Below are positions 2,335 to 59,848 of a DNA stretch of 64,000 nucleotides, piece by piece. The DNA comes from Brevundimonas sp. (GTDB taxonomy: Bacteria; Pseudomonadota; Alphaproteobacteria; Caulobacterales; Caulobacteraceae). The stretch spans positions 232,475 through 296,474 of the forward strand of contig NZ_JACESA010000002.1 in assembly GCF_013912065.1 (NCBI RefSeq). The letters are read 5' to 3'. How positions within the stretch are numbered: the stretch's first letter is position 1; every line of letters begins with the position of its first letter. Under the pieces are notes generated by a model, which worked only from the letters and a program-made list of their open reading frames with translations, made no database searches and was not told the origin of the DNA. Position numbers and translations under genes: made by a program.

Positions 2335-2982
2335 TCAGGCCGGGCCCCATTCCATCTCCTCATCCGTCACCTGCAGCCCGGAGTCCAGACAACCTGTGGA
2401 CCGAAAAGCCTGAAGCCGCGACGGGCCGGCGCCTTCCTGTTCCAGGTCCTCGTGCAGACGGTCGAGACGCGACGCCGGATGCAGCCGAGGGTGGATCGTG
2501 GTGCGCAGATCGTGGGGTTTTCCACTATCCAACAGCAGCCGCAGGCTGGCGCGGGCGCGACGGCCGCTGCCGCGGGCGCGGGTCAGGTCGTCATAGTCGT
2601 CGAAGGCGGTCTTGACGTCGAAACCCACCCAATCCACCAGCGGCAGAACCCGCGCCAACCGCGACGGATAGGCGCCGCCGGTGTGCAGGCCGATGCGGAA
2701 GCCCAGGGATCGAACCTGGACGACGGCATCGATCAAGCCCTTCTGCAATGTGGGTTCGCCGCCGCTGAAGACGACGGCGTCCAGCAGGCCGCGCCGACGA
2801 TGCAGAAAATCGAGCGTCGTCGGCCAGGACAGAAGGGCGGCGCCCCTGACGGGCAGGAGGTGGGGATTGTGGCAGTAGCCGCAGCGCCAGGGACACCCCT
2901 GGCAAAAGACGGTCGCCGCCAACTGACCGGGCCAGTCGCAGACCGACAGAGGCTCGAACCCGCCGACGAGCAGCTCACTCAA
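2335..2982 (-). CDS. nrdG: Anaerobic ribonucleotide reductase activating enzyme (radical SAM)
   Basis: This 215-residue radical SAM protein has the [4Fe-4S] motif CPWRCGYC (C-x3-C-x2-C) near residue 33, preceded by an extra Cys (FCQGCPW). Glycine-rich SAM-binding FSGGEPTLQ follows. Activases of this type use SAM to abstract hydrogen from a glycine in the partner reductase. The start is a TTG at 2980-2982. It overlaps the stop of the small glycyl-radical gene upstream (TTGAGTGA), which implies translational coupling. It belongs to the NrdG-like group with a longer N-terminal part than E. coli NrdG. The target here should be the Gly of the neighbouring 59-residue protein rather than the C-terminus of the large NrdD chain. 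Confidence 0.92.
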   Translation of the reverse strand: MSELLVGGFEPLSVCDWPGQLAATVFCQGCPWRCGYCHNPHLLPVRGAALLSWPTTLDFLHRRRGLLDAVVFSGGEPTLQKGLIDAVVQVRSLGFRIGLHTGGAYPSRLARVLPLVDWVGFDVKTAFDDYDDLTRARGSGRRARASLRLLLDSGKPHDLRTTIHPRLHPASRLDRLHEDLEQEGAGPSRLQAFRSTGCLDSGLQVTDEEMEWGPA

Positions 2983-3154
2983 GACCGGCGGCCCGTTCGC
3001 TGAAATAGAGACGCTCGCGGAACTCGCCCTTCTTGCCGAGATTGAACGACGAAACGGGGCGGTGATAGCCCATCACCCGCGTCCACACTTCGCAGGGTTG
3101 ACGCTCGCTCTGGGGAATACGGTCCGCAGCTGAGGCGGGACGGTTCTGAGACAT
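2975..3154 (-). CDS. Separate glycyl-radical domain of the class III ribonucleotide reductase (59 aa)
   Basis: A short frame of 59 residues starts at ATG 3154 after an AGGAG ribosome binding site. Its core reads CEVWTRVMGYHRPVSSFN. R-V-x-G-Y is the glycyl radical motif of NrdD and pyruvate formate-lyase, so Gly29 is the expected radical site. The large NrdD chain next door ends right after its zinc site and carries no RVxGY motif. The two frames differ (+1 relation, 31 bp gap), so this is not a simple read-through stop. The gene is followed directly by nrdG, the enzyme that would activate it. Similar tiny proteins are annotated in databases as anaerobic reductase NrdD-like, as I recall. I infer that it forms the radical-bearing subunit of a split class III enzyme. 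Confidence 0.85.
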   Translation of the reverse strand: MSQNRPASAADRIPQSERQPCEVWTRVMGYHRPVSSFNLGKKGEFRERLYFSERAAGLE

Positions 3155-3185
3155 GATAAGCTCCTGGGTTTCGAAGGGGACAGTG

Positions 3186-4910
3186 TCAGGCGGCCGCGCG
3201 GGCGCGACGGGCCAAGATCACTTCGTCGCATTTGGGGCAGAACGGGTGCTCGCCGGCGAGGTAGCCGTGCGTGGGGCAGATGGAATAGGTCGGGGTGACG
3301 GTGATGTAAGGCAGGCGGAAATTGGCCAGGGCGCGCTGGACGAGTTTGCGACAGGCCTCGGCGCTGGAAAGGCGCGCGCCCATATACAGATGGAGCACCG
3401 TGCCGCCGGTGTATTTGGACTGCAGGATCTGTTGGCGATCCAGAGCCTCGAACGGGTCGTCGGTGTAGCCGACCGGAAGCTGGCTCGAGTTGGTGTAATA
3501 GGGGTTTTCGGGCGTTCCGGCCTGGAGGATGTCGGGCCAACGACTCCGGTCTTCCTTGGCGAAACGATAGGTGGCGCCTTCGGCCGGCGTGGCTTCCAGA
3601 TTGTACATGTGGCCGGTCTCGTCCTGGAAGGCGAGGATCCGGGCGCGCACATGATCCAAAAGCCGCTCGGCCAGGGCGTGGCCCGCCGGGGTGGTGACGT
3701 CCTCCTCGTCGTCGGTGAAGTTTCGGATCATCTCGTTGATCCCGTTCACCCCCAGGGTGGAGAAGTGGTTTCGCAGCGTGCCCAGATAACGCCGCGTGTA
3801 GGGAAACAGGCCGTCGTCCATCAGGCGCTGGATCTCCGTGCGCTTGATCTCCAGACTGTCGCGGCCCAGGTCCAGCAGCCGGTCGAGATCAGCCAGAAGC
3901 GCGGCCTCGTCGCCCTTGCGCCTGTAGCCGAGCCGGGCGCAGTTGATGGTGACGACCCCGAGCGACCCGGTCTGTTCGGCGCTCCCGAACAGACCGTTGC
4001 CGCGCTTGAGCAGTTCCGTCAGGTCGAGCTGAAGCCGGCAGCACATGGACCGGACCATGTGCGGCTTGAGATCGGAGTTCAGGAAATTCTGAAAATAGGG
4101 CAGGCCGTATTTGGCCGTCATGGCGAATAGCCGTTCCGCGTTCTCGTGATCCCAGGGAAAGTCCGGCGTGATGTTGTAGGTCGGGATGGGGAAGGTGAAG
4201 GCGCGGCCCAGGGCGTCGCCTTCGCTCATGACCTCGATGAAGGCGCGGTTGATCATGTCCATCTCCGGCTGGAGGTCGCCATAGGCGAAGGGCATGGCGT
4301 CACCCCCGATCATTGGAATCTGCGCCTTCAGATCATCAGGGCAGGTCCAGTCGAAGGTCAGATTGGTGAAGGGCGTCTGCGTGCCCCACCGGGAGGGCAC
4401 ATTGAGATTGAACACCATCTCCTGAAGACACTGACGCACCGCTTCATAGGGCATGGCGTCTTTGCGGACGAACGGCGCCATATAGGTGTCGAACGAGCTG
4501 AAGGCCTGGGCGCCCGCCCATTCGTTCTGCAGGGCGCCCAGGAAGTTGACGACCTGACCGACTGCGCTGGACAGGTGGCGAGGCGGCGCCGACTCGATCT
4601 TGTTGGCCACCCCGTTCAAGCCTTCTGTGAGCAGGGTTCTGAGCGACCAGCCCGCGCAATAGCCGCTCAGCATGTCCAGATCGTGGATGTGCAGGTCGCC
4701 CTCGCGGTGGGCGGCGCCGACGGCGGGCGGATAGAGGTGGGACAGCCAGTAGTTGGCGATCACCTTGCCGGAGACATTCAGAATCAGACCCCCCAGGGAA
4801 TAGCCCTGGTTGGCGTTCGCGTTCACCCGCCAGTCCTGCCGGTCCACATATTCGCGAACCGTCTGAACGACGTCGATGGATGGGGCGGCTGGGCGGGTGG
4901 CGGTCAACAT
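3186..4910 (-). CDS. nrdD: Anaerobic (class III) ribonucleoside-triphosphate reductase, large chain without glycyl radical domain
   Basis: The 574-residue protein reduces ribonucleotides to deoxyribonucleotides without oxygen. N-terminal NQGYSLGGL and HIHDLDMLSGYCAGWS carry the substrate-site residues, with Cys85 a candidate active-site Cys. VRSMCCRLQLD contains the likely thiyl-radical Cys. The C-terminus has a zinc-binding pattern CPTHGYL then CPKC. Unlike E. coli NrdD (about 710 aa) it has no N-terminal ATP-cone and stops after the zinc site, so the conserved RVxGY glycyl loop is missing. That loop is supplied by the 59-residue gene downstream. The start ATG at 4908-4910 has an AGGAA about 11 nt upstream. 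A perfect FNR-type box lies 135 bp upstream, which fits expression under low oxygen. Confidence 0.93.
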   Translation of the reverse strand: MLTATRPAAPSIDVVQTVREYVDRQDWRVNANANQGYSLGGLILNVSGKVIANYWLSHLYPPAVGAAHREGDLHIHDLDMLSGYCAGWSLRTLLTEGLNGVANKIESAPPRHLSSAVGQVVNFLGALQNEWAGAQAFSSFDTYMAPFVRKDAMPYEAVRQCLQEMVFNLNVPSRWGTQTPFTNLTFDWTCPDDLKAQIPMIGGDAMPFAYGDLQPEMDMINRAFIEVMSEGDALGRAFTFPIPTYNITPDFPWDHENAERLFAMTAKYGLPYFQNFLNSDLKPHMVRSMCCRLQLDLTELLKRGNGLFGSAEQTGSLGVVTINCARLGYRRKGDEAALLADLDRLLDLGRDSLEIKRTEIQRLMDDGLFPYTRRYLGTLRNHFSTLGVNGINEMIRNFTDDEEDVTTPAGHALAERLLDHVRARILAFQDETGHMYNLEATPAEGATYRFAKEDRSRWPDILQAGTPENPYYTNSSQLPVGYTDDPFEALDRQQILQSKYTGGTVLHLYMGARLSSAEACRKLVQRALANFRLPYITVTPTYSICPTHGYLAGEHPFCPKCDEVILARRARAAA

Positions 4911-5038: not shown

Positions 5039-5052
5039 TTGATCGCCATCAA
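5039..5052. promoter_or_regulatory. FNR/FixK-type box between nrdD and nnrS
   Basis: The sequence TTGATCGCCATCAA is a perfect inverted repeat matching the FNR/FixK consensus TTGAT-N4-ATCAA. It lies midway in the divergent region, about 135 bp from the nrdD start and 136 bp from the nnrS start, so it could serve either promoter. Confidence 0.8.
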
Positions 5053-5181: not shown

Positions 5182-6360
5182 ATGACCACCGATCGCCCCC
5201 TTCGCGCTCTTTCAACGCCCGTCCTGTTCAGCTTAGGGCTTCGGCCCTTCTTCCTGTTCGGCGCCCTGTGGGGAGCGATGGCGGCGCCGCTCTGGGTCTA
5301 TGTTCTGGCGCATGGCGACGGACGGATCGCCGGTCGCGCGGGGATGGACTGGCATATCCACGAGATGCTGTTCGGCTATGTCGGCGCCGTCATCGGTGGT
5401 TTTCTTCTGACCGCCGTGCCGAACTGGACCGGTCGCGCGCCACTCGCGGGAACGCCGCTGGCGGTGTTGTTCGGGCTCTGGGCCGTCGGACGTCTGGCCC
5501 TGTCGACCCCCGGAGCCGACGCCTTCACCCTGCTGATCCTCGACGGCCTCTATCTGACAGGGCTGAGCCTGGTCGTCTGGCGCGACGTCCTGGCGGCGCG
5601 CAACTGGCGCAATCTCGGCGTCGCCCTGGCCGTAACCGGACTGGCCGCCGCCAATCTGGCCTTCCACCTCAGGTCAGGAGAGGCCGGCGGTCTGGACGCC
5701 GTGGTGCGCGCCGGTCTAGGCCTGATCGTCATGCTTCTGGTCCTGATCGGCGGCCGTGTGACGCCGAACTTCACCCGCAATTGGCTGGCGCGCCAGGGAA
5801 GAGGGCGGCTGCCCGCCCCTGCCTCGCGGTTCGATCTGGGGGTCATGGCGTTTACCCTGACGGCTCTCGTCGCCTGGGTGTGGCGGGCCGACCATCCGGC
5901 GGTCGGAGTGGTCCTGGCCTTGGCGGGGCTCTTGAACGGCGTGCGGCTGGCCCGGTGGTGCGGCTGGCGCACCGTCGGCGAGCCGCTGGTCTGGATTCTG
6001 CACCTCGGCTACGCCTGGCTCGCCGTCGGCCTGGTCCTGCTGGGGCTGGCCGCCATGGGGGCGAGCTTTGCGCCTTCGGCGGGCGTCCACGCCCTGACGA
6101 CCGGGGCCATGGGGGTGATGATCCTGGCGGTGATGACCCGGGCCACGCGCGGCCATACGGGACGGCCGCTGGAGGCGGACCGGGCCACGGTGGTCTTGTA
6201 TGGGCTCGCCAATCTCGCCGCCGTGGTGCGGGTGGCGGGCGGGCTGTGGCCGGAGGTCTATGGCGCGGCCCTGATCGTCGCGGGCGGCCTTTGGGCGGCG
6301 TCTTTGCTCGGCTACGCCCTTGTCTACGGGCCGATGTTGCTAGGACCGCGCTTGAGGTGA
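5182..6360 (+). CDS. nnrS: NnrS family heme-copper membrane protein
   Basis: The 392-residue protein is almost entirely membrane helices (about twelve). It opens with FSLGLRPFFLFGALWGAM and has the motif GMDWHIHEMLFGYVGAVI, both typical of NnrS. NnrS proteins bind heme and copper in the membrane and protect cells against nitric oxide stress. They are regulated by NO or low oxygen in denitrifiers. The start ATG is preceded by AAGGAG (GCAAGGAGTTCCGTC). Two regulator boxes of different type lie upstream at 5039 and 5120. A second nnrS lies at 56368-57552, and the two are clear paralogues (shared FSLGLRPFFLFGALW). It converges with the crp gene at 6399. Confidence 0.93.
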   Translation: MTTDRPLRALSTPVLFSLGLRPFFLFGALWGAMAAPLWVYVLAHGDGRIAGRAGMDWHIHEMLFGYVGAVIGGFLLTAVPNWTGRAPLAGTPLAVLFGLWAVGRLALSTPGADAFTLLILDGLYLTGLSLVVWRDVLAARNWRNLGVALAVTGLAAANLAFHLRSGEAGGLDAVVRAGLGLIVMLLVLIGGRVTPNFTRNWLARQGRGRLPAPASRFDLGVMAFTLTALVAWVWRADHPAVGVVLALAGLLNGVRLARWCGWRTVGEPLVWILHLGYAWLAVGLVLLGLAAMGASFAPSAGVHALTTGAMGVMILAVMTRATRGHTGRPLEADRATVVLYGLANLAAVVRVAGGLWPEVYGAALIVAGGLWAASLLGYALVYGPMLLGPRLR

Positions 6361-57586: not shown

Positions 57587-59848
57587 TCATCCGCATTTGG
57601 AATAGCCGCACTCGAGACAACTGTCGCAACCCTCCTTGCGCACCAGGCCTGGCGCGCCGCAGCGGGGGCAGGCCGAGGGCGCCGGCCCGGGCGCTGAGGA
57701 AACGGGATGAGGTTCGATGGCTTCGGCGGACTCGCATCCGCTTTCGGCGGCGAGGCTAAGGTGCCGCTCAATCACTGCGCCGATCGCTGCGGGAAGCGAC
57801 GGCGTGTAGCGCCCTTCCATCCAGGCGCCGCCGCCGGGATCGAACACCGCCTTCAACTCCTCGGCGACAAAGGAGACGTCCCCGCCGCGCCGGAAGACCG
57901 CCGAGACCATCCGGGTCAGGGCGACGGTCCAGGCGTAGTGCGCCATGTTCTTGGAGTTGACGAAGATCTCGAACGGTCGCCGCGCCCCTTCGTCATCGGG
58001 GTCCGCGTCATTGATGGTGACGTAGACGGCGTGGGCGTCCAGCGGCCAGCGGATCTTGTAGGTCGCGCCTTCGAGCCGACCGGGGCGCGGCGTCAGAGGA
58101 TCGACGTCGGACGACGGAGCCGCCGCCGGAACGGAGGCCGGCGCCTCGACGCTGAGCACCGAACCGGTGATGGCGTTGGGGCGATAGGTGGTCAGCCCCT
58201 TGCAACCCATCCGATAGCCTTGACGATAGACATCCGAAAACGCCGAGAAGTCGATGTTTTCCGGGCAGTTGATCGTCTTCGAGATCGAGCTGTCGATCTG
58301 CGCCTGCGCCGCCGACTGCATCCTCAGGTGATGCTCCGGGGTCAGGGTCTGGGCGCTGACGAAGGCGTCGCCGGGCGCGCTGTCGAGCGGCGCGTCAGGG
58401 CCTTTGAGCGTCTTCCATAAGGCCAGGGCGTAGTCTTCGACGGCCTCCTCACGTCGCGTCCCGTCGGGCTGCAGGACTTTGCGCGTATAGGCGAAAGCAA
58501 ACACGGGCTCGATGCCGGACGAGACATTGCCGGCCAGGAGGGAGGTGGTGCCCGTCGGCGCGATCGAGGTCAGACAGCCGTTGCGCAGGCCGTGAAGCCC
58601 GATCAGTTCCCGAGTCTCCGCATCCAGACTTGCGAGATTGGGCCGCTGCAGCATCGCGGGGTCATAGAGGGGGAAGGCGCCCTTTTCGGCCGCCAGTTCA
58701 GCCGAGGCGCGATAGGCTTCTCGCCGGATCAGGCCCAGCCACCGCCCGGTCAGGGCGACGGCGCGGTCTTCTCCATAGCGGGCGCCGCAGAAGATCAGGG
58801 CGTCGGCTAGGCCGGTCACGCCGAGGCCAAGCCGGCGTTTGGCGCGGGCTTCGGCCTCCTGGGCGGGCAGGGGAAAACGGGAAATGTCGATGACATTGTC
58901 CAACATCCGCACGGCAGTGCGGGTGAGCCCGGCCAACTCCTGTTCGTCCAGGGCCGCATCGGGCTCGAAAGGCGCCGAGACGAGGCGGGCCAGATTGATC
59001 GACCCGAGAAGACAGGCTCCATAAGGCGGCAACATCTGTTCGCCGCAGGGATTGCTGGCCGCGATGACTTCGCAATGCGCCAAATTGTTCGCGGCATTGA
59101 CCCGGTCGATGAAGATCACGCCCGGTTCCGCCGCGTCATAAGTGGCCTGCATCAGTCGGGTCCAGAGATCCGTGGCGCGGACCGTGCGTCGGATTTCGCC
59201 GTCGAACACCAGGGGCCAGTCCGCATCCGCGTCCAGCGCGGCCATGAAGGCGTCGGGAACCAGAACCGAGAGATTGAAATTCCTGAAGCGGACCGCGTCG
59301 CGTTTGGCGTCGATGAAGGCCTCGATGTCCGGATGGTCGATGCGCAAACAGCCCATCATCGCCCCGCGCCTCTGACCGGCGGACATGATGGTGCGGCACA
59401 TCGAATCCCACACGTCCATGAAACTGAGCGGACCCGAAGCCTCCGCGCCGACCCCTCGCACGAGAGCGCCGGAGGGGCGAACTGTGGAAAAGTCCATGCC
59501 GACGCCGCCGCCCTGCTGCAGGGTGACGGCGGCTTCGCGCAGATGCTGGAAGATGCCGTCCAGATCGTCCGGGACGACGCCCATGACGAAACAGTTGAAC
59601 AAGGTCACGGCGCGACCTGTGCCGGCGCCGGCGAGGATTCGTCCAGCGGGCAGGAACCGGTAGGCGTCCAGCGTCTCGCGGAACCGGGCCCGCCATCGCG
59701 CCCGGGTCTTGGTCGGCTCCGCTTCGGCCAGGGCGGCCGCCACCCGGTCCCATGTGGCTTCGACGGTGGCGTCTCCCGTCCCCTCGTGCGGGCGGAAGCG
59801 ATATTTGCTGTTCCAGATTTCTCCGGCCAAGGGACTGTCGAACGCCAT
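57587..59848 (-). CDS. nrdJ: Class II (adenosylcobalamin-dependent) ribonucleotide reductase
   Basis: The 753-residue protein contains NCFVMGVVPDDLDGIFQHLRE, GGGVGMDFS, SNPCGEQMLPPYGACLLGSINLA (the active-site Cys region) and SIAPTGTTSLLAGNVSSGIEPVF. These are catalytic blocks shared by class I/II reductases, and there is no small-subunit gene nearby. C-terminal CPRCGAPGL, then CDSCLECGYSKCG is the zinc-ribbon tail of NrdJ. It needs vitamin B12 but neither needs nor is harmed by oxygen. The cell thus also has an oxygen-tolerant route besides class III NrdD. Confidence 0.95.
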   Translation of the reverse strand: MAFDSPLAGEIWNSKYRFRPHEGTGDATVEATWDRVAAALAEAEPTKTRARWRARFRETLDAYRFLPAGRILAGAGTGRAVTLFNCFVMGVVPDDLDGIFQHLREAAVTLQQGGGVGMDFSTVRPSGALVRGVGAEASGPLSFMDVWDSMCRTIMSAGQRRGAMMGCLRIDHPDIEAFIDAKRDAVRFRNFNLSVLVPDAFMAALDADADWPLVFDGEIRRTVRATDLWTRLMQATYDAAEPGVIFIDRVNAANNLAHCEVIAASNPCGEQMLPPYGACLLGSINLARLVSAPFEPDAALDEQELAGLTRTAVRMLDNVIDISRFPLPAQEAEARAKRRLGLGVTGLADALIFCGARYGEDRAVALTGRWLGLIRREAYRASAELAAEKGAFPLYDPAMLQRPNLASLDAETRELIGLHGLRNGCLTSIAPTGTTSLLAGNVSSGIEPVFAFAYTRKVLQPDGTRREEAVEDYALALWKTLKGPDAPLDSAPGDAFVSAQTLTPEHHLRMQSAAQAQIDSSISKTINCPENIDFSAFSDVYRQGYRMGCKGLTTYRPNAITGSVLSVEAPASVPAAAPSSDVDPLTPRPGRLEGATYKIRWPLDAHAVYVTINDADPDDEGARRPFEIFVNSKNMAHYAWTVALTRMVSAVFRRGGDVSFVAEELKAVFDPGGGAWMEGRYTPSLPAAIGAVIERHLSLAAESGCESAEAIEPHPVSSAPGPAPSACPRCGAPGLVRKEGCDSCLECGYSKCG

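Follow-up and report, generated by a model that had tools for sequence, protein, structure and literature searches.

A class III ribonucleotide reductase with its predicted radical glycine on a separate 59-residue protein

Class III ribonucleotide reductases (RNRs) of the NrdD family (PF13597, TIGR02487) are recognized by a barrel, finger-loop cysteines, a C-terminal C/H/C/C site, an RVxGY motif and the partner protein NrdG. The described enzymes bear the radical motif at their own C-terminus, as far as the available parts of PMC9531940 and PMC11226230 go, and the glycyl radical domain is usually defined as the zinc site plus the glycine loop (PMC11226230, same part). Small free proteins with a glycyl-radical loop that serve a large enzyme are known in a cellular form, YfiD (GrcA), and in a phage form, T4 Y06I. 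Their loops, however, are of the pyruvate formate-lyase (PFL) type, and YfiD is a spare for a PFL that was originally complete and has been cut by oxygen. The available part of PMC8683613 treats spare parts as demonstrated for PFL only and speculates on other enzymes. RNRs with a catalytic chain in two genes are also known (the class II NrdJa/NrdJb pair and split phage RNR genes), but they belong to other classes or are interrupted by introns, inteins or endonucleases, and a detached radical residue is not described in the available parts of PMC9669993 and PMC3653736. Here we analyze a 64,000-nt stretch of Brevundimonas sp. (GCF_013912065.1, a draft assembly of 45 contigs), referred to in full as the window, in which nrdD, a 59-residue open reading frame (ORF) and nrdG follow each other on the minus strand, with the RNR-type radical loop on the 59-residue protein.

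The large chain and the small radical-loop gene

To compare the two chains with the family, we used profile searches. NrdD matched positions 2-531 of the 562 positions of PF13597 (561 bits) and the small ORF matched positions 530-562 (32.1 bits, curated cut-off 26.2). The matches are complementary, meet at 531/530 and together make up one class III RNR, which bears out the claim of a first-pass annotation of this DNA that the glycyl loop lies on a separate 59-residue gene. NrdD has the NRDD barrel domain and an MCC finger-loop, a double-cysteine motif described in the available part of PMC9669993, and its best NCBIfam match is NF006126 (1021 bits). The radical motif R..G[YF] was sought along the whole NrdD chain and was not found. 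Because this motif is absent from NrdD and sits on a separate ORF, we consider the window enzyme to be a variant of class III rather than an ordinary member. The detachment concerns only part of the usual radical domain: the glycine loop and tail have moved out, while the putative C/H/C/C zinc site remains on the large chain, and the annotation's description of the glycyl radical domain as a separate gene is corrected in this respect. The N-terminal ATP-cone is apparently missing from the window NrdD, for which a Pfam profile search gave no match to this domain. The NrdD open frame is 620 residues in the window compared to ~680-700 in many split relatives; other short split NrdD frames occur at L013, L016 and L026.

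The small gene starts after a 31-bp gap from the NrdD stop, in a different frame and with an AGGAG site of its own, and overlaps nrdG by 8 nt. NrdG, encoded in the same cluster as nrdD, matches TIGR02495 (NrdG2) with 185 bits (cut-off 131). PF13597 is the only Pfam family matched by the small protein at E <=1; a PFL-type glycine radical domain (Pfam PF01228) was not found in it. We found no further PF13597 match in the window genome. The small protein itself was detected there only once, the four other matches all having E >0.5. As the sole copy found, it would have to be an obligatory subunit in this genome. No PDB chain matched it by sequence. For the small protein alone, AlphaFold returned a model of moderate quality, with a predicted local distance difference test score (pLDDT) of 73 and a predicted template modeling score (pTM) of 0.40, in which strands 24-27 and 30-33 flank Gly29.

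In the open-licence literature, parts of which were available, we found no class III RNR described with its glycyl loop split off, and an earlier description is possible. The existence of the small gene is already on record, since RefSeq names it nrdD. We place the split enzyme with class III RNR, as a variant, and not with GrcA.

Distribution, reading frames and origin of the split

Relatives were collected by scanning contigs of named genomes (the best 80 of at least 543 relatives, a set biased towards the query) and by searching a class sample and a phylum sample (385 and 396 genomes), which are less biased. Split enzymes occur in Cupriavidus necator H16, Bradyrhizobium, Paracoccus, Pseudomonas, Billgrantia, Sutterella, Devosia, an Opitutaceae bin and Sulfuricurvum (Campylobacterota), so that the arrangement extends over Proteobacteria, Opitutae and Sulfuricurvum. 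It is annotated as two genes in H16, Bradyrhizobium and Sulfuricurvum and was read directly in Paracoccus. In the class sample, 46 of 385 genomes had an NRDD match, and these were divided into 32 split, 12 fused and 2 unclear cases (G353, where a contig end cuts nrdD, and G377, with a radical ORF only). Apart from G353, whose contig ends inside nrdD, every genome of this sample with a loop-less large chain also has a radical ORF. The phylum sample yielded 69 matches in 396 genomes (one below cut-off), with 20 split enzymes, 18 of them of the window subtype; for genomes whose loci were not individually read, we relied on the match table to assign the state. Six of the genomes listed for the phylum sample are of the same genus as the window, and none of them had an NRDD match.

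Thirty-one of the 32 split genomes in the class sample carry the window subtype and one, G158, another. Two genomes from a different genus of Alphaproteobacteria have this second subtype (G158, locus L122, and G690, locus L167). Its NrdD is ~22% identical to the window NrdD over part of the length and ends after CxxC, and a short downstream ORF with its own ATG bears RRITGYLVG. The short ORF lies in frame behind one TAG, and readthrough is possible there. If real, this pair would represent an independent second fission.

We then asked whether the two frames could still yield one polypeptide, using 116 linked loci in which the small gene is near a separate NrdD (scan loci, annotated plasmids and individually chosen genomes). 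Translation of both frames as a single chain through a frameshift or stop readthrough would fit the closeness of the genes (median gap 34 nt) and the 28 of 116 loci that are in frame. However, all three frame offsets occur (2, 1 and 0 in 47, 41 and 28 loci), and the gap is variable, with a 10th-90th percentile range of 10-130 nt and extremes from overlap to several hundred nt. The offset and gap values mean little for L029 and L056, as the large chain is interrupted in both. The NrdD stop is TGA in 71, TAA in 30 and TAG in 15 of the loci. Furthermore, the small gene starts at an ATG of its own behind a separate Shine-Dalgarno sequence: 82% of 119 loci have a match of >=5 ahead of an in-frame ATG, versus 10% with shuffled upstream sequences (the start picker favoured an ATG with a Shine-Dalgarno sequence, and the control took all in-frame ATGs). 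In some draft genomes the small gene is unlinked. It lies apart from both nrdD and nrdG in G103 and G299, beside nrdG and apart from nrdD in G273, and ~11 kb from nrdD on one contig in G647; the nrdD contigs of these four genomes extend at least 1.4 kb past the gene. The small gene also occurs alone on plasmids and viral contigs. Given the varied offsets and gaps, the separate starts and the unlinked copies, no one recoding event accounts for the split, and we regard joined translation as highly improbable. Six genomes that seemed to hold both parts in one frame (G021, G050, G251, G190, G285 and G090) were rejected as fused cases, because they have separate in-frame ORFs divided by stops.

One may also suspect an assembly error or a broken gene in the window genome, which is a 45-contig draft, and large chains are indeed interrupted at some other loci (L029 and L056). 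This explanation is already refuted by the homologues, which show the split. The identical arrangement is found in complete replicons of named isolates and the small ORF is under purifying selection, leaving the explanation a practically negligible chance. Both checks that the first-pass annotation had proposed came out in its favor: related genomes are split in like manner, and the large chain has no intact glycyl loop.

The loop itself is highly conserved. Among 136 small ORFs, 133 have R-[VI]-[MVT]-G-Y, the remaining three (L123-L125) have R-S-M-G-F, and the glycine is present in all. L093, a piece of a different complete NrdD, and L101, an 84-residue divergent ORF below the cut-off, had been left out of this set, and they do not figure among the second copies described below. 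The three variant sequences belong to an alphaproteobacterial genus with small genomes. A cysteine occurs at -5 from the arginine in 129 of 134 aligned small proteins; the remaining 5 have it at -3. Threonine occupies -5 in nine distant fused enzymes, whose CxxC runs almost straight into the loop; six nearer fused forms keep the cysteine and have a longer linker, as do L268 and the Acidiphilium plasmid enzyme L272. The ratio of nonsynonymous to synonymous differences per site (pN/pS) of the small ORF was calculated for nine groups, each with 2 to 8 sequences, and ranged from 0.000 (in Pseudomonas) to 0.27, although saturation is likely in some groups because pS reaches 0.92. The varied offsets, the unlinked copies and the glycine in every copy strongly support the proposal, made in the first-pass annotation, that the radical glycine would be held on a separate, mobile subunit.

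To trace the origin of the split, we computed a quick LG+G4 tree from 126 NrdD cores, of which 112 are split and 14 fused. Fifteen loci that were incomplete, disrupted or devoid of nrdD had been dropped beforehand, as had 9 distant relatives. When large and small chains were aligned jointly, the small ones were misplaced, and this alignment was not used. The split or fused state changes 3 times on the tree compared to a mean of 13.5 after shuffling, and none of 500 shuffles gave a value as low. The simplest reading would be one fission at the base of a clade of 117 rows followed by two re-fusions, one in Actinomycetota (L052 and L004, grouped with Devosia, support 98) and one in a single alphaproteobacterial family (L120, L121 and L148, support 99). 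L268 and L272, which are outside the tree, may be further re-fusions.

On these sequence comparisons we establish that each of the two genes has a start signal, that their domains complement each other, that the glycine is conserved, that the reading frames are independent, that unlinked copies exist and that the split forms are of common descent. The small protein is very probably an obligatory, separately made glycyl-radical subunit that is activated by NrdG on the large chain. Some points weigh against this explanation. SH-aLRT support for the basal branch of the split clade reaches only 80, and the outgroup brings long branches together; for these reasons a single fission is likely but not proven. 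Some lineages have re-fused the two parts and can thus dispense with detachability. In the AlphaFold model of a fused relative the radical loop has pLDDT <50 and is uninformative.

Extra copies in cells, plasmids and viral contigs

Second stand-alone copies of the small gene were found in nine genomes. Four belong to the class sample, where 32 genomes are split (G002, which has three copies in all, G073, G285 and G090; all four are split) and five are among 49 individually searched genomes, in or near Sutterellaceae (G402, G404, G419, G427 and G430). No nrdD or nrdG lies beside the ten second-copy loci within flanks of 4.4 to 10 kb. Four loci (L080, L128, L129 and L130) have two neighbour genes in common, one with a phosphoribosyltransferase domain, and these shared neighbours show that the locus is old. 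The pN/pS of this group is 0.051.

One alternative is that the small protein is a GrcA-type spare for a complete enzyme encoded elsewhere. The five genomes on the Sutterellaceae side do encode a complete NrdD of another subtype, and three actinobacterial genomes have a complete NrdD together with a separate ORF bearing a like radical loop. In the window genome, however, NrdD is without the loop and there is no other NRDD match; in contrast to the PFL that YfiD repairs, the large chain here never has the glycine. The spare role is thus rejected for this genome, and we consider the alternative very unlikely, also because the small protein matches no Pfam family other than PF13597. The analogy with YfiD drawn in the first-pass annotation is therefore only partly right: it fails for the sole, obligatory copy of the window genome, while spare-like copies are present in some Alphaproteobacteria, in Sutterellaceae, on viral contigs and on two plasmids.

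The actinobacterial cases were found among 149 genomes searched, 43 with a match. The complete NrdD ends in RRITGYLVGTLDRFN and a separate frame of 122-157 residues elsewhere has a near-identical loop (Table 1); such frames are possible true spares for a complete class III RNR. In nine genomes (G804, G833, G868, G911, G848, G861, G901, G819 and G933) the actinobacterial NrdD match breaks at a few shared model positions, and these intein-like breaks lie inside long open frames.

Twenty-eight plasmid records match the small protein and 26 of them match NrdD too. The two without NrdD, Allochromatium tepidum pAt1 and A. vinosum pALVIN01, carry a gene of 60 to 70 residues under the RefSeq name nrdD.

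Viral loci come from IMG/VR, which we scanned using the alignment of small proteins (best 80 of 184 relatives). None of the 80 loci has nrdG in its flanks and only one (L175) has an NrdD core, leaving 79 without nrdD and nrdG, although contig ends often shorten the flanks. When 50 of these viral records were searched whole, 49 had a radical-loop match only and no NrdD core; the records may be fragments. The glycine and tyrosine are present in 80 of 80 loci and the cysteine at -5 in 75, with 66 distinct core sequences, but this conservation is partly a selection effect as the scan patterns derive from the conserved loop. A cluster of 15 viral contigs (8 distinct DNAs) has a pN/pS of 0.128. Shine-Dalgarno matches of >=5 were found in 58% of 72 loci versus 12% after shuffling, and 8 loci had no usable ATG. 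Ten viral neighbour proteins were scanned, of which 8 have matches among phage functions (terminase, structural, tail fibre, tape measure, two endolysins, replication initiation and DNA polymerase), 1 matches only families of unknown function and 1 has no match. In the ANMV-1 virus, a short ORF annotated as anaerobic ribonucleoside triphosphate reductase consists of the radical loop only, after a cysteine-bearing start. A cysteine-rich stretch precedes the viral loop at L191, L188 and L205 and is perhaps a metal site of its own.

Cultured phage examples are scarce. Three small-protein queries found 2, 8 and 2 records in a collection of phage records, with the window protein finding two. MT835493 was rejected as a stand-alone radical gene because it bears a fused phage NrdD. 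In L264, a faecal phage record, a fused NrdD frame of 810 residues runs past the loop to a CPNC tail that is perhaps glutaredoxin-like. The phage family phrog_4132, of unknown function, has a 179-position profile; its stretch from 86 to 166 is matched by the small protein of the window and by five viral proteins.

Genomic setting, proposed mechanism and meaning

The FNR/DNR-type box upstream of the nrdD operon, on the side of nnrS (Table 1), is one of three perfect TTGAT-N4-ATCAA boxes (5039, 7245 and 51508) in the window, where genes for nitrate respiration abound. Using the FNR/DNR consensus, we counted 8 boxes with <=1 mismatch in the window, with 0.42 expected by shuffling. The window also encodes the alpha chain of a respiratory nitrate reductase, a multicopper oxidase and a second RNR, perhaps a B12-dependent NrdJ; one more RNR with class I/II domains is encoded elsewhere in the genome. 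In H16, where the split enzyme is carried on pHG1, NrdDG is reported as essential for complete denitrification (available part of PMC2864759).

Table 1 Positions of the features discussed, in window coordinates except for the last row
Feature	Position	Strand	Remarks
nrdG activase, radical SAM	2335..2982	-	TIGR02495, PF04055; TTG start inside small gene
Stand-alone glycyl-radical subunit gene (putative), 59 aa	2975..3154	-	PF13597 530-562/562
Codon of Gly29, expected radical glycine in RVMGY	3068..3070	-	Gly in 136/136 homologous ORFs
Codon of Cys21, 5 residues N-terminal to Arg of RVMGY	3092..3094	-	Cys at -5 in 129/134 aligned small proteins
Shine-Dalgarno AGGAG of small gene	3161..3165	-	6 nt ahead of ATG (3154)
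nrdD large chain, 574 aa	3186..4910	-	Class III RNR barrel without glycyl loop
Putative zinc site C545, H548, C558, C561	3228..3278	-	Columns invariant in 29 aligned homologues
Finger-loop M289-C290-C291, expected thiyl-radical site	4038..4046	-	Double-cysteine type; nearly invariant in 29 aligned homologues
FNR/DNR-type box TTGATCGCCATCAA, perfect	5039..5052	.	Between nrdD operon and divergent nnrS
NnrS gene, divergent (context only)	5182..6360	+	PF05940, 361 bits
Second RNR, class I/II domains	57587-59848	-	PF02867, PF00317, TSCPD, C-terminal CxxC pairs
Separate actinobacterial loop frames (L255, L256, L257)	L255 4200-4577; L257 4345-4713	L256: reverse	NrdD partners L258, L259, L261

We propose that the operon yields three products in turn: NrdD, the 59-residue radical protein, translated from a ribosome-binding site of its own, and NrdG. 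The small protein would dock at the barrel, where the tail of an ordinary NrdD docks, and NrdG would take a hydrogen from Gly29 of the docked protein. The finger-loop cysteine would then receive the radical from the glycine, just as it does in ordinary class III enzymes. With less certainty, a small subunit cut by oxygen at Gly29 might be swapped for a fresh one without remaking NrdD, and the duplicated, plasmid and viral copies might enlarge the supply of fresh subunits. Such an exchange, a cheap replacement of the kind suggested in the first-pass annotation, is plausible and would be consistent with the spare-like copies and the perfect FNR-type box. Alternatively, the detached subunit could be real and obligatory and yet serve assembly, regulation or dosage rather than the exchange of oxygen-damaged parts. 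The position of the small gene inside the nrdD-nrdG cluster at linked loci and the existence of re-fused lineages fit this alternative, whereas the extra copies and the viral copies without nrdD fit a supply of the radical part alone; we see it as a realistic possibility, though one to which we give less than even weight.

Class III RNRs have been described with the radical on their own tail, which is the site of the oxygen cut. Starting from exchange of the small subunit, one may go further and regard the radical subunit as an exchangeable currency, with an ancient fission, action in trans, cellular spares, and viral and plasmid copies that sustain or restart the class III RNR of the host. 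We hold the chances of this broader proposal to be about even. If it is true, the viral and plasmid radical proteins would be the RNR counterpart of T4 Y06I, and the second split subtype in G158 and G690, together with the stand-alone actinobacterial loops, would make an exchangeable radical part a general strategy. The natural two-chain form renders radical installation, docking and exchange separable and testable.

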